Assembly (NCBI GenBank): GCA_900469345.1
Contig: UBWZ01000001.1
Span: 124,001-188,000, forward strand
Direction of reading: 5' to 3'
DNA from: Hyphomicrobiales bacterium
GTDB taxonomy: Bacteria; Pseudomonadota; Alphaproteobacteria; Rhizobiales; Rhizobiaceae
DNA length: 64,000 nt
In this document: piece by piece, positions 46,824-52,369 of the stretch
Layout: each line of letters opens with the position of its first letter
Position numbering within the stretch: the first letter of the stretch is position 1
The notes under the pieces: model-generated
Database searches by the model: none
What the model saw: only the letters and a program-made list of their open reading frames with translations
Told to the model about the DNA's origin: nothing
Program-made: the position numbers and the translations under genes

Positions 46824-47138
46824 GCCGCGGGGCCAGGAAATTCATTGCCGAACCCCTGATTTTTTATTGGTGCGACGGAACCTAGTTTCAGAAGCACCGT
46901 TATTCGGATGTCTGAAGGCGACCCCCCGTCCCCCGCCCTAAAGAGCCTTCGGACACGCTCTTCAATCCCCCTCGAAGAGACAAACTGGCTCGGCTCCTCC
47001 AAGGAACCGAGCCAGTTTCGCGTTGTGCCGATAGCATCGATCGCGGGCCACCTCATCGCAGAAATCAATGTCGGCCATGGCCGACAAAAGCGTTGCAAGG
47101 CCATGACGGCCCGCCCGAAGCCAGCTTTGGGAGGTTTG
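46824..47138. other. Intergenic stretch with a strong hairpin
   Basis: About 315 bases between two convergent genes. Short frames on both strands have no ribosome sites and no recognisable protein pattern. The one clear element is a 16-bp inverted repeat with one mismatch, AAACTGGCTCGGCTCC (46982-46997) with GGAACCGAGCCAGTTT (47002-47017), around a 4-base loop. It is symmetrical and could end transcripts from both sides, or mark a small RNA. Confidence 0.6.
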
Positions 47139-48143
47139 CTATTCGCTGCCGCTTTCCAGCGGGAAGGTCAGCCTGTAGCGGATGCGACCGTCGGCAATCT
47201 GGTATTGCGCCTTGCCGTTGACCGAGGCGGGCACGACACGCTCGAGCACCGTGCTGCCGAAATGGGCCTTTAGCGAGTCCTCGCCGCCATCCTCGGCCTG
47301 ACCGGCATCGAGGGATTCGTCCCACACGATTTCCAGGCAATCGCGGCCCTCGCTGAAGCTGCGCGAGCAGGCGACCTCGATCACCCGACCGCTGCGCAGC
47401 ACAGACCCGTGGCTGACGGCATTGACGATCAGCTCGTGGAGCGCGAGGCCGAGATGCAAAGACGCATTTGGCGTCAGCAGCACGTTGTCGCCCGACACAT
47501 GCACGAGATGGGTGTTCTCCGGCAGGTACTTTTCGGTCTGCTGCTGCACCAGCTCGAAGAAGTAGGCGCCGCGCCAGCTGGAGTCCGTGATCAGGTCCTG
47601 GCTCTGCGACAGCGAATAGAGACGTCCGCGGAACTTCTGCAGGAACAAGTCGAGCGAACCGGAATAGCGGGCAGTCTGCAGCGCAATGCTCTGGATGATG
47701 GCAAGCAGGTTCTTCGACCGGTGGCTGACTTCGCGCAGCAGGGCGCGCAGCAGCCGTTCGCGATGACGCTCCTCGGACCGATCGATGATCGTGGTGACGA
47801 GATGGATGCCGCGCTGTTCCGACTGAACGGACTGGATCCGGAATTCATAGACCTGGTCGAAGCCGGCGGTCACTTCGAGATGCGCCTTGCGTCCCGCCGA
47901 GACCATCTCCTGCTTGAGGACCGACAGTTTGGCTGCCACGTCGGCGCCGAAAAGGCTGAGGTCGGTCGGTGCCGACTGGATTTCCACCGCCCATACGTCG
48001 GGCAGGTTGGTGACAAGCAAGTAATTCTGCTGCGCATCCTGAATGGTGATGCTGGCGCCGAGATCGATGAGTGCGGGCATCAGGAATTCCCGCAGTTTGT
48101 CATCGCTCTGACCAGCTTGCGGCCATGTCAGCGGATGCACCAA
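47139..48143 (-). CDS. HWE-family sensor histidine kinase, likely of the general stress response
   Basis: A 334-aa cytosolic kinase with a PAS-like N-terminal sensor (residues about 25-125). The HWE-type phosphoacceptor is H141 in EVSHRSKNLLA; the N-box has N241 (HELIVNAVSHG) and the diagnostic W-x-E is W274-D-E276. HWE kinases next to phyR (PhyK, LovhK and relatives) phosphorylate PhyR, so this is the probable input of the stress system. No membrane helix is present, so it senses an internal cue. The start is TTG 48143 or GTG 48140, after a GGAG at 48151-48154. Confidence 0.88.
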   Translation of the reverse strand: MVHPLTWPQAGQSDDKLREFLMPALIDLGASITIQDAQQNYLLVTNLPDVWAVEIQSAPTDLSLFGADVAAKLSVLKQEMVSAGRKAHLEVTAGFDQVYEFRIQSVQSEQRGIHLVTTIIDRSEERHRERLLRALLREVSHRSKNLLAIIQSIALQTARYSGSLDLFLQKFRGRLYSLSQSQDLITDSSWRGAYFFELVQQQTEKYLPENTHLVHVSGDNVLLTPNASLHLGLALHELIVNAVSHGSVLRSGRVIEVACSRSFSEGRDCLEIVWDESLDAGQAEDGGEDSLKAHFGSTVLERVVPASVNGKAQYQIADGRIRYRLTFPLESGSE

Positions 48144-48414: not shown

Positions 48415-48440
48415 AACGGTGACCCAGCCGGATTTGTTCC
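48415..48440 (-). promoter_or_regulatory. EcfG-type promoter upstream of the small ORF/HWE kinase
   Basis: Minus strand: GGAAC (48436-48440), 17 bases, CGTT (48415-48418). This fits the rhizobial EcfG/RpoE2 consensus GGAAC-N16/17-CGTT. It lies just past the phyR stop and faces the kinase gene. Confidence 0.65.
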
Positions 48441-48464: not shown

Positions 48465-49259
48465 TCAGGCAGCGGCCTTGACAGTCTCGTTGAAGAACAG
48501 CGCCTGGCTGATCAGGGCCTTCACCATGTCCGGGTTGAACGGCTTCGTCACAAGGAAGGCGGGCTCGGGGCGTTCGCCCGTCAGCAACCGTTCCGGGAAG
48601 GCAGTGATGAAGATGACCGGCACGCTGGAGGACTTCAGGATCTCGTTGACCGCGTCGATCCCCGAGCTACCGTCGGCGAGCTGGATGTCGGCCAGAACCA
48701 TCTTCGGGCTGGACGACTGGAACAGCGCCACGGCTTCCTTGTGCGTGCGTGCAATGCCGGTCACGCGGTGGCCGAGATCCTGCACCATCTGCTCGATGTC
48801 GAGCGCGATCAGCGGCTCGTCCTCGATGATCATGATATCGGTTGCGACCTGGCGCGAGATTTCGCGCGACGCTTCGTCCAGTAGACGGTTGACGTCGGCG
48901 GTCCCGATATTGAGGACCTCAGCGGTTTCCTCGATCGTGAAACCTTCGACGGAGACCAGCAGGAACGCGTGACGCGCCTGCGACGGAAGGCTCGAAAGAT
49001 TGGCCGCTGCCCGCTGCTCCCAGGCGAAGGGAGAATCGATGGGGCGGATCTCGATGGCGGTGGAACCAAAAATTGCAACAAACAGTTTGTAAAGCGAAAC
49101 ACGATCCTTGGTTGTCTCGGGGAAAATCGAGACATCGGCAATCAAGGCTTCAAGGACCGCCGCGACATATGCGTCTCCCGACGTCTGCGACCCTGTAACG
49201 GCACGGGCATAACGGCGCAGATACGGAAGGTGAGACGCAACGCGTGTGGTAAGTGACAT
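48465..49259 (-). CDS. phyR: PhyR: response regulator with a sigma-factor-like domain (anti-anti-sigma)
   Basis: Master switch of the general stress response, 264 aa. Residues 1-135 mimic an ECF sigma factor (regions 2 and 4; the ETAEVLNIGTADVNRLL stretch is the sigma-4-like helix), and residues 140-264 are a receiver domain. The phosphoacceptor is D191 (VLADIQLADG), with E146/D147 in the acidic pocket and K239 (VTKPFNPD). When phosphorylated, it binds NepR and frees EcfG. I start at ATG 49259 with GGGGAGA upstream. An EcfG-type promoter precedes it, so it is under positive feedback. Confidence 0.95.
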   Translation of the reverse strand: MSLTTRVASHLPYLRRYARAVTGSQTSGDAYVAAVLEALIADVSIFPETTKDRVSLYKLFVAIFGSTAIEIRPIDSPFAWEQRAAANLSSLPSQARHAFLLVSVEGFTIEETAEVLNIGTADVNRLLDEASREISRQVATDIMIIEDEPLIALDIEQMVQDLGHRVTGIARTHKEAVALFQSSSPKMVLADIQLADGSSGIDAVNEILKSSSVPVIFITAFPERLLTGERPEPAFLVTKPFNPDMVKALISQALFFNETVKAAA

Positions 49260-49301
49260 ACAAAATCTCCCCTGGCCCAGACGGGCAATTGACCTGTAGC
49301 A

Positions 49302-49326
49302 AACGTGGGATCGAAAAAAAAGTTCC
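49302..49326 (-). promoter_or_regulatory. EcfG-type promoter of phyR
   Basis: Minus strand GGAAC (49322-49326), 16 bases, CGTT (49302-49305), an exact match to the EcfG consensus. Its -35 is only 8 bases from the -35 of the opposed nepR promoter. Confidence 0.85.
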
Positions 49327-49334
49327 GCAAGGTG

Positions 49335-49359
49335 GGAACTATTTTTATCGCCGGTCATT
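49335..49359 (+). promoter_or_regulatory. EcfG-type promoter of nepR-ecfG
   Basis: Plus strand GGAAC (49335-49339), 16 bases, CATT (49356-49359): one base off CGTT but with the two conserved T bases in place. Expected transcript start near 49366, consistent with nepR starting at ATG 49392. Confidence 0.75.
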
Positions 49360-49391: not shown

Positions 49392-49604
49392 ATGAGTGAA
49401 GACCTCGGAACCAAGAACGATATGAACATAGCCCAAACTCCAGAAGTCAAACCCGGGACGGCGTCTCCCAATGCGTCGATCTCGCGCAAACTGCGTGATT
49501 TCTACGATGCGGTACAGGAAGAAGGAATCCCCGACCGGTTCCTGGATCTCCTCGAGAGACTGGACCAGGCTGAAAAGAACGCGAAGTCGGTGGAAGCGAA
49601 ATGA
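49392..49604 (+). CDS. nepR: NepR anti-sigma factor
   Basis: Small protein that holds EcfG inactive until phospho-PhyR titrates it; 70 aa. The C-terminal half, LRDFYDAVQEEGIPDRFLDL with the following LLERLDQAEK, is the conserved NepR helix pair that wraps EcfG or PhyR. I start at ATG 49392 because upstream in-frame starts (49305, 49362) lie in or before the promoter. It overlaps ecfG by four bases (ATGA), the usual nepR-ecfG coupling. Confidence 0.93.
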   Translation: MSEDLGTKNDMNIAQTPEVKPGTASPNASISRKLRDFYDAVQEEGIPDRFLDLLERLDQAEKNAKSVEAK

Positions 49605-50167
49605 GCAAGGAAGTCGATACTGACGACCGCATTTTCAAGCGGGATCTGCTTTCCTCGCTGCCGAACCTGCGCGCTTTTGCCGTGTCGCTGACCGGGCGCC
49701 ATGACAAGGCCGATGATCTCGTGCAGGACACGATCATGAAGGCCTGGGCAAACCAGAAGAGCTTTACGGCCGGCACCAATATGCGGGCCTGGCTTTTCAC
49801 CATCCTGCGCAACGAGTTCTACAGCCAGATGCGCAAGCGTGGCCGTGAGGTGCAGGATACCGACGGGCTGTTCAGCGAACGGTTTTCGGTCCACCCGGAA
49901 CAGTACGGGCGGCTCGACCTTCAGGATTTCCGCAAGGCTCTCGACAAGCTGCCCGATGACCAGCGAGAAGCGATCGTTCTCGTCGGCGCGGCCGGCTTTG
50001 CCTATGAGGAAGCGGCTGAGATCTGCGGCTGCGCCGTCGGCACGATCAAGAGCCGTGTCAGCCGCGCCCGCACCAGGCTCCAGGAATTGCTCGGCGTGTC
50101 CGGCGAGAGCGACTACGGCCCGGATGCTGGCGACGCGGCGATCACCGCGCGTGCGTTCGGAAGCTGA
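49601..50167 (+). CDS. ecfG: EcfG-type (RpoE2) general stress sigma factor
   Basis: An ECF15-type sigma factor, 188 aa. Region 2 (about 20-85: DDLVQDTIMKAW, MRAWLFTILRNEFYSQ) recognises the -10 element, region 4 (about 110-165: YEEAAEICGCAVGTIKSRVSRAR) the -35 GGAAC. It directs the general stress regulon and, from the promoters seen here, its own gene, phyR and the DUF883 operon. Rhizobia may have several EcfG paralogues; this is the one linked to nepR, so probably the main one. Confidence 0.95.
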   Translation: MSKEVDTDDRIFKRDLLSSLPNLRAFAVSLTGRHDKADDLVQDTIMKAWANQKSFTAGTNMRAWLFTILRNEFYSQMRKRGREVQDTDGLFSERFSVHPEQYGRLDLQDFRKALDKLPDDQREAIVLVGAAGFAYEEAAEICGCAVGTIKSRVSRARTRLQELLGVSGESDYGPDAGDAAITARAFGS

Positions 50168-51444: not shown

Positions 51445-51909
51445 TCAGTCGTCCCGGTCGGACGGATGCCGGCCGAGGCCCAGCATCGACGGCAGGAACT
51501 TCACGGCTGCAAAGCCGAGACCGCCCGCGACAGCCAGGATGGCGAGCGTGCGGGACTTGGCAACGCTTGGCAGCGCCGTCGCTGCCGCCGATACCATCAG
51601 AGCCCGGCGGCTGTTGGCGGCCGCCAGTTCGCGCTTGCGCTTTTCCTCCGCCGCGTTGGCGATGGCTGCGCAGATGTAAAGGATCAGCGCCAGGACAAGG
51701 GCGCCGCCGGCGACGGCGAGAAGCCCGAGCGGCAGCCCCCAGTATTCGCCGAGATAGATCGCGAGCGCCGTAAGGCCAAGCGCATAGGCGGTCAGCAGAA
51801 AGACCGCCGCAAGGCCGAAAAGGATCGCGTTGCGCCTGGCTTTGCGCACGAAGCCCGCAATGTCGACTGCGGCAAACGACGCCAGAATGGGACCCAGCGC
51901 GCCCAGCAT
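51445..51909 (-). CDS. Phage-holin-like/YqjE-type membrane protein
   Basis: A 154-aa membrane protein with two close central helices (residues about 30-55 and 60-85), a basic loop (EEKRKRELAAANSRR) and a further C-terminal hydrophobic stretch (about 118-140). The layout fits the YqjE/phage-holin III family that accompanies DUF883 proteins. It overlaps the DUF883 gene by one base (TGATG), so the two are co-translated. An EcfG promoter lies before the pair; both are probably envelope-protective stress proteins. Confidence 0.78.
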   Translation of the reverse strand: MLGALGPILASFAAVDIAGFVRKARRNAILFGLAAVFLLTAYALGLTALAIYLGEYWGLPLGLLAVAGGALVLALILYICAAIANAAEEKRKRELAAANSRRALMVSAAATALPSVAKSRTLAILAVAGGLGFAAVKFLPSMLGLGRHPSDRDD

Positions 51910-52235
51910 CAGCGGCGCGTCATCAGCGCGAAGATAAAGCCGACGCCGGCAGCGACGGCGACCGACTGCAGCGGCTTGCTGCGGATCTGCTGTTCCATGT
52001 CGCGTTCCCAGCTCAGCGCCTGCTTCTGGGCAGCTTCGACCATCTGCTTCGATGCATCGGCGGCGTCCGTGGCAGCCCGGCGGGCCTTGCCGCGTACTTC
52101 ACTTGCCTTGTCGTTGCCGAGTGCCGCAACAGTGCGGGCAAGCGCTGCAATGTCTTCGCGCAGCTGGCTGATCTGGGCTTCCACGTCCTTGGAAGTGGTC
52201 TGGCCGCTAAGGGGCAGGTCATTGGCAGATGGCAT
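51909..52235 (-). CDS. DUF883 (ElaB/YqjD-type) membrane-anchored protein
   Basis: A 108-aa protein of the DUF883 family. It has a long amphipathic helix (residues about 20-85: ISQLREDIAALARTVAAL and KARRAATDAADASKQ) and a C-terminal membrane anchor (about 88-106: SVAVAAGVGFIFALMTRR). E. coli relatives bind ribosomes at the inner membrane in stationary phase. I start at ATG 52235; the longer frame starts in non-coding sequence. An exact EcfG-type promoter at 52345-52369 makes it a general stress gene, consistent with relatives. Confidence 0.85.
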   Translation of the reverse strand: MPSANDLPLSGQTTSKDVEAQISQLREDIAALARTVAALGNDKASEVRGKARRAATDAADASKQMVEAAQKQALSWERDMEQQIRSKPLQSVAVAAGVGFIFALMTRR

Positions 52236-52344
52236 GGGAAACTCCTGTCGTTGCGGGTCGATGTGTGAAGGTCGCGCGTTGAGCGCGGAATGGGACGGGC
52301 ACGGGGGCGGGCATGGCAGCACCCTAGCCCCGCTGCGGCCGGAA

Positions 52345-52369
52345 AACGCGGCAAAACCGTGATTGTTCC
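52345..52369 (-). promoter_or_regulatory. EcfG-type promoter of the DUF883 operon
   Basis: Minus strand GGAAC (52365-52369), 16 bases, CGTT (52345-52348): an exact consensus match about 110 bases before the DUF883 ATG. Confidence 0.82.

Follow-up and report, generated by a model that had tools for sequence, protein, structure and literature searches.

In a genome close to Neorhizobium, the promoters of phyR and of the divergent nepR-ecfG operon lie back to back with their −35 boxes 8 bp apart, and in the relatives examined this gap takes values mostly about one turn of DNA apart, which suggests that the two promoters are physically coupled rather than mere neighbours. The reading we prefer, which may quite possibly be right but which we hold tentatively, is that of an interlocked pair of EcfG promoters with reciprocal UP-like elements, the spacer of each serving its partner. 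Such a pair would drive positive feedback in the general stress response.

The promoter pair between phyR and nepR-ecfG

The window, by which we mean the whole stretch of 64,000 nucleotides analysed, carries a general stress response (GSR) locus, recognised by its PhyR, NepR and sigma-70 domains: phyR, encoding an anti-anti-sigma response regulator (48465–49259, minus strand; Pfam PhyR_sigma2, PhyR_sigma-like and Response_reg), is divergent from an operon of the anti-sigma gene nepR (49392–49604, plus strand; Pfam NepR) and the ECF sigma factor gene ecfG (49601–50167, plus strand; Pfam Sigma70_r2 and Sigma70_r4_2). A sequence resembling a ribosome site, AGGGGAG, precedes phyR at 49267–49273. 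The start of nepR is tentatively placed at 49392, downstream of the predicted transcript start, the alternative being the ATG at 49422; NepR was matched from residue 1 by tblastn in most of the nearest named loci (L039–L066).

Read directly, positions 49302–49359 have the form AACG-N16-GTTCC-N8-GGAAC-N16-CATT. The phyR promoter, on the minus strand, consists of the −35 box GGAAC at 49322–49326 (GTTCC on the plus strand) and the −10 element CGTT at 49302–49305 (AACG on the plus strand), and the nepR-ecfG promoter, on the plus strand, of GGAAC at 49335–49339 and CATT at 49356–49359. Both spacers are 16 bp long, and the boxes are separated by an 8-bp gap (49327–49334, assigned to neither strand) whose length is 5–12 bp in most relatives and whose sequence is not conserved. 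The −35 boxes with their coordinates, the gap and the −10 elements had been described in this way in the first-pass annotation, and that description is correct throughout. The EcfG motif has been given as GGAAC-N16-CGTT (PMC3892343), and EcfG (ECF15) promoters are recognised by GGAAC and a CGTT-like −10 element 16–17 bp apart; the phyR promoter is an exact match and the nepR promoter is one letter off.

That both units are driven by EcfG, as had also been proposed, agrees with the promoters seen here and with the dependence reported for two rhizobia. In R. etli, reporters for the phyR and ecfG1 units both depend on EcfG1; when assayed in E. coli, the R. etli phyR promoter is recognised by EcfG1 and EcfG2 and the ecfG1 promoter is not significantly induced by EcfG2 (PMC3892343). 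In S. meliloti, rsiA1 and rsiB1 have mapped starts below RpoE2-dependent promoters (PMC3616915).

The inverted repeat formed by the two −35 boxes was rejected as evidence in its own right: bare GTTCC-N0–25-GGAAC occurs 140 times in this genome, fewer than the 242 matches in the reversed control, so that the repeat without −10 elements means nothing. A search for pairs with −10 elements in register, AACG at one end and NNTT at the other, and a gap of 0–30 bp found two places in the genome against none in the control; one is the phyR/nepR site, and the other has a gap of 0. It is conservation, not the repeat count, that settles the reality of the promoter pair, since the pair was found in all 28 of the nearest named loci (L039–L066, with PhyR 91–98% identical, among the best 80 of 518), the closest being that of N. 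lilium 24NR (L066; PhyR 98% identical). The first-pass annotation had raised the conservation of the 8-bp spacing. The arrangement is kept in all 28 loci, but exactly 8 bp is rejected as the conserved value, the gap being 7 bp in five, 8 bp in 15 and 9 bp in eight of them, and 5–12 bp in 209 of the 249 loci of the wider comparison.

Much the same holds for the −10 elements, whose difference (CGTT against CATT) had been read as a possible bias towards PhyR. Near this genome the asymmetry is fixed, with CGTT on the phyR side and CATT, AATT or TATT on the nepR side in 27 of 27 distinct loci among L039–L066. It is not general: over the 249 loci the consensus is present on the phyR side only in 120, on the nepR side only in 31, on both in 80 and on neither in 18, and CATT as a universal bias is rejected, the asymmetry being absent or reversed in other lineages. 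A Sphingopyxis study reports that in vitro a change of CGTT to CATT lowers, and of CATT to CGTT raises, transcription by EcfG, and that across different promoters some non-consensus −10 elements out-transcribe some consensus ones (PMC7083833). In this genus group, the CATT on the nepR side probably makes the output of NepR-EcfG lower than it would otherwise be relative to that of PhyR.

Further EcfG-type sites lie in the window. One at 46877–46901 (plus strand) has an A/T tract about 9–18 bp upstream. Another, GGAAC-N17-CGTT at 48415–48440 (minus strand), lies between phyR and an HWE kinase gene (47139–48143); it could drive the kinase gene or a small RNA, and a site like it is found just past phyR in many relatives (a cluster of 46). 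A third, GGAAC-N16-CGTT at 52345–52369 (minus strand), is directly upstream of a small ORF (51909–52322, minus strand) that is a possible member of the stress regulon. Some 300 bp past phyR, two relatives (L033 and L034, near 2580) have an extra promoter-like site of GGAAC and a T-run, preceded by an A/T tract.

Spacing of the −35 boxes among relatives

PhyR was found in 125 of 151 genomes of the home family (E up to 1e-60) and, with the limit on E at 1e-45, in 64 of 385, 74 of 120, 2 of 4 and 116 of 199 genomes in samples that share some genomes. The loci fetched are part of these matches, taken by best score first and then by hand for spread: 30 loci and 109 stretches from the home-family search, 30 loci and 35 of the remaining rows from the sample of 385, the best 30 from that of 120, and the best 30 plus 20 chosen for family spread from that of 199; the named loci are the best 80 of 518. 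Of 389 loci, 29 were removed before the comparison (sigma paralogs, control stretches from the genome itself and two copies of the window locus), and the 360 examined comprised 27 that were not divergent and 333 with phyR divergent from nepR or ecfG. The box rule required GGAAC and NNTT without mismatch on each side and a gap no longer than 70 bp; 77 of the 333 failed it, 75 because a box was mismatched or no pair was present and two (L378 and L198) because their exact boxes lay 92 and 98 bp apart, respectively. Removal of seven duplicates then gave 249 distinct divergent loci. Family labels (27) were mapped by hand; all named loci were placed in the home family, though one of them from Rhodobium (L096) is not of it, and L341 (label f189) has the same sequence as that locus.

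The gap between the −35 boxes is 5–12 bp in 209 of the 249 loci (mode 8), 19–20 bp in seven, 22 bp in one, 28–32 bp in seven, 38–42 bp in 21 and 51–57 bp in four, and no gap of 0–4, 13–18, 23–27, 33–37 or 43–50 bp was found among these exact-box loci. Looser pairs in the 77 loci that failed the box rule include gaps of 43–52 bp (nine pairs, both scores at least 9), many of which may be chance matches; they partly fill the otherwise empty range of 43–50 bp and so count against sharply separated classes. Two orphan phyR loci outside the 249 (L120 and L126) have gaps of 29 and 30 bp. The short back-to-back gap, on which the first-pass annotation had built, is strongly conserved, but other lineages have classes near 19, 29 and 40 bp, which simple exclusion of one polymerase by another does not predict.

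It looks as if the length of the gap is kept by selection while its sequence is free. In the 209 short-gap loci the gap has a standard deviation of 1.0 bp, against 18.6 bp for the distance from the phyR −10 element to the start and 59 bp for that from the nepR −10 element to the NepR domain, and identity among the 91 gaps of exactly 8 bp is 27%, which is near chance. The gap has also changed repeatedly, at least 61 times by parsimony and at least seven times between short and long, on one EcfG tree of 173 tips whose support was not tested.

The 40 long gaps are most strongly concentrated at a period of 10.5 bp (R 0.68; eight periods tried), and R is 0.57–0.68 over 9.5–12 bp, which leaves the period loosely defined. 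When these loci were collapsed by hand to 19 lineage events, those of the home family following the EcfG tree and four coming from one family (gaps of 40, 51, 54 and 57 bp), R was 0.56 at 10.5 bp (p 0.0026) and the phase matched that of the 8-bp gap (p 0.0014). A scan of periods from 6 to 16 bp over the 19 events gave a best value of 11.25 bp (corrected p 0.0135). The evidence for gap classes about one helical turn apart is therefore suggestive, not final.

A separate group of 22 loci (L067–L088) has phyR with no close ecfG match within the fetched stretch. GGAAC-CGTT is kept on the phyR side in 21 of the 22, and the nepR side has GGAAC and a T-run followed, in many, by a departed −10 element, frequently nCTT, that a different sigma factor may recognise.

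A/T tracts and a proposed coupling of the two promoters

In the window, the phyR spacer contains a run of eight T (T8) at 49314–49321 (minus strand; A8 on the plus strand), and the nepR spacer contains the A/T run TATTTTTAT at 49340–49348 (plus strand); tracts are found here in relatives too. Counted from the first base of the opposing −35 box, the T8 run is 14–21 bp upstream of the nepR box and the TATTTTTAT run 14–22 bp upstream of the phyR box, a position suited to an UP element that is kept in most, not all, relatives. Across the 249 loci, an A/T tract lies about 11–20 bp upstream of most GGAAC boxes. We scored an A/T run of at least five at −20 to −11 from GGAAC against shuffled sequence. 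At gaps of 5–12 bp shuffling gives the tract on 12% of nepR sides and 11% of phyR sides, whereas the loci have it on 88% and 75%; it is on neither side in 18 of 209 loci, and it is the T-run of the partner's spacer. At 28–32 bp, one tract within the gap lies at that distance from both boxes, scoring on both sides in seven of seven loci. At 19–20 bp it is found on 57% of nepR sides (shuffled, 21%), the 14% of phyR sides not being above shuffled (18%); at 38–42 bp the values drop to 38% and 33% (14% and 9% after shuffling), and at 51–57 bp it occurs in none of four loci.

For comparison, solo EcfG-type sites of the other loci were collected as motif matches, that is as putative promoters, and joined into clusters by shared k-mers, the largest cluster at least holding unrelated members. 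The tract is at the same place in 91% and 100% of the members of two of the seven larger clusters, in 55% of one, in 0–19% of four and in 27% of the small clusters, and at 8% of 1251 other GGAAC sites. By eye, the two clusters at 91% and 100% resemble the window site at 46877. The solo sites of this genome were rejected as a control: they were too noisy, with 68 sites against 45 control counts and a simple ORF caller that put the true phyR promoter within an ORF.

We propose that the polymerase carrying EcfG would use an UP-like site some 11–20 bp from the −35 box on its upstream side; where the gap is 8 bp, the spacer of the partner would supply this site, the T8 run of the phyR spacer acting as the UP-like element of nepR and the TATTTTTAT run of the nepR spacer as that of phyR. 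Bound by the C-terminal domain of the RNA polymerase alpha subunit (alpha-CTD), each spacer would double as the other promoter's UP element. The genome encodes an alpha-CTD, which aligns over its length with solved alpha-CTD chains including the E. coli chain 1lb2_B. A polymerase on one promoter would cover the −35 box and spacer of the other, and one copy of the DNA would then fire one way at a time; both units would nevertheless rise together, because both need EcfG. Promoters, their conservation, the classes of spacing and the tracts can be read from the sequence, and from them we infer alpha-CTD binding, mutual exclusion and an effect on the output ratio. It may also be that the classes of gap length reflect the places at which a tract of about one turn can be fitted, and not polymerases touching each other.

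The likeliest rival to reciprocal UP-like elements is that the T-runs simply aid recognition of the promoter in whose spacer they lie, the compact arrangement being inherited with no coupling. Runs of at least four T (T4+) occur in the two spacers in 183 and 149 of the 209 loci with gaps of 5–12 bp, in four and three of seven at 28–32 bp, and in 0 of 25 and 0 of 25 at 38 bp or more, a loss that speaks against this rival. However, 22 of these 25 long-gap loci belong to one family, so the loss may be lineage-specific there; the other three (L223, L370 and L385) also lack T-runs, and when families are counted the contrast comes down to a modest 15 of 18 with short against 4 of 11 with long gaps (p 0.017). 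T-runs are kept where there is no close partner: both at a gap of 32 bp in L355, and a T7 spacer run in L068 and L070, whose phyR promoters have a nepR match about 730 and 650 bp off. T4+ was found in 36 of 269 solo sites, and effects of T-stretches in spacers are cited for ECF sigma factors of B. subtilis in PMC7083833. The position of the tract varies by 1.51 and 0.84 bp (standard deviations) relative to its own −35 box and by 1.65 and 1.17 bp relative to that of the partner; a tract tied to the partner alone is thus not upheld, the tie to the own box being at least as tight. With shorter gaps the T-run lies slightly further from its own −35 box (Spearman −0.27 and −0.42, not corrected for kinship), a trend in favour of reciprocal elements. 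Against purely intrinsic T-runs, gap length has changed many times yet has stayed within classes, and inheritance alone predicts no period near one helical turn; we consider it unlikely.

The first-pass annotation proposed instead a competition switch, in which the short gap keeps two EcfG holoenzymes from binding together and the better −10 element, that of phyR, tips the outcome to PhyR. Competition between the two promoters is plausible: with starts taken 5–12 nt after each −10 element, the range used in PMC3616915, the predicted starts are about 67–81 bp apart, the asymmetry of the −10 elements is conserved near this genome, and CATT is reported to be weaker than CGTT in matched context in vitro (PMC7083833). 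Exclusion alone should, however, permit any small gap including overlap, yet gaps of 0–4 bp are absent from the 249 loci; gaps near 29 and 40 bp are found in other lineages, the asymmetry fails or is reversed elsewhere, and nothing in the present comparison shows exclusion. As the explanation of the arrangement, the switch is therefore improbable. A-tracts are typical of bent DNA and of AT-tract-binding nucleoid or regulatory proteins, and the tracts might be the site for such a protein, for instance one of the MucR/Ros type or an AT-tract binder like H-NS, which would silence or bend the DNA between the genes. In a rhizobium, MucR has been reported to act on AT-rich genes as a xenogeneic silencer (PMC8857273). 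We regard this as very improbable, since the distance from tract to GGAAC is much the same, also in two solo clusters, which points to polymerase and not to a free-standing regulator.

Beyond this locus, the reading with reciprocal UP-like elements can be put more broadly, though in this form we find it somewhat doubtful: Alphaproteobacteria would share one bidirectional phyR/nepR-ecfG element whose gap is quantised by the helix (about 8, 19, 29 and 40 bp) because each polymerase would have to reach, with its alpha-CTD, an A/T tract lying one to two turns upstream, and the shortest class would swap tracts, coupling the two promoters and ordering their firing.

Relation to known systems and significance

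The alphaproteobacterial GSR locus is well described, for example as rsiB1 / rsiA1-rpoE2 in S. meliloti and phyR / ecfG1 in R. etli, with the same genes, divergent order and EcfG-type promoters, both units being generally EcfG-driven (PMC8103513; PMC4814048). The accounts of this locus, as excerpted, give no −35 gap, gap classes or A/T tracts, which are noted here for the window locus and its relatives, and no account of spacing classes or shared tracts was found in the open-licence literature searched. The divergent EcfG-driven locus is established knowledge; the spacing classes and shared tracts are what the comparison adds. UP elements bound by alpha-CTD, among them the ones at E. coli sigma-E promoters (Rhodius et al., 2012, as cited in PMC7670410), are likewise A/T-rich and upstream of −35, at −40 to −60 (PMC7670410). 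Unlike these, the site proposed here would lie within the spacer of an opposing promoter.

There is also a likeness to PR and PRM of phage lambda, which are back-to-back divergent promoters close enough for interference between polymerases; they differ in sigma factor and are controlled by a repressor.

Protein ratios govern the partner switch of PhyR, NepR and EcfG, and the 58-bp element described here would fix the ratio at the level of transcription. If the spacing is quantised by shared UP-like sites, divergent promoters could be coupled by a simple rule that needs no regulator, and the natural gap classes of about 8, 19, 29 and 40 bp offer a ready series for asking whether overlapping polymerases compete.
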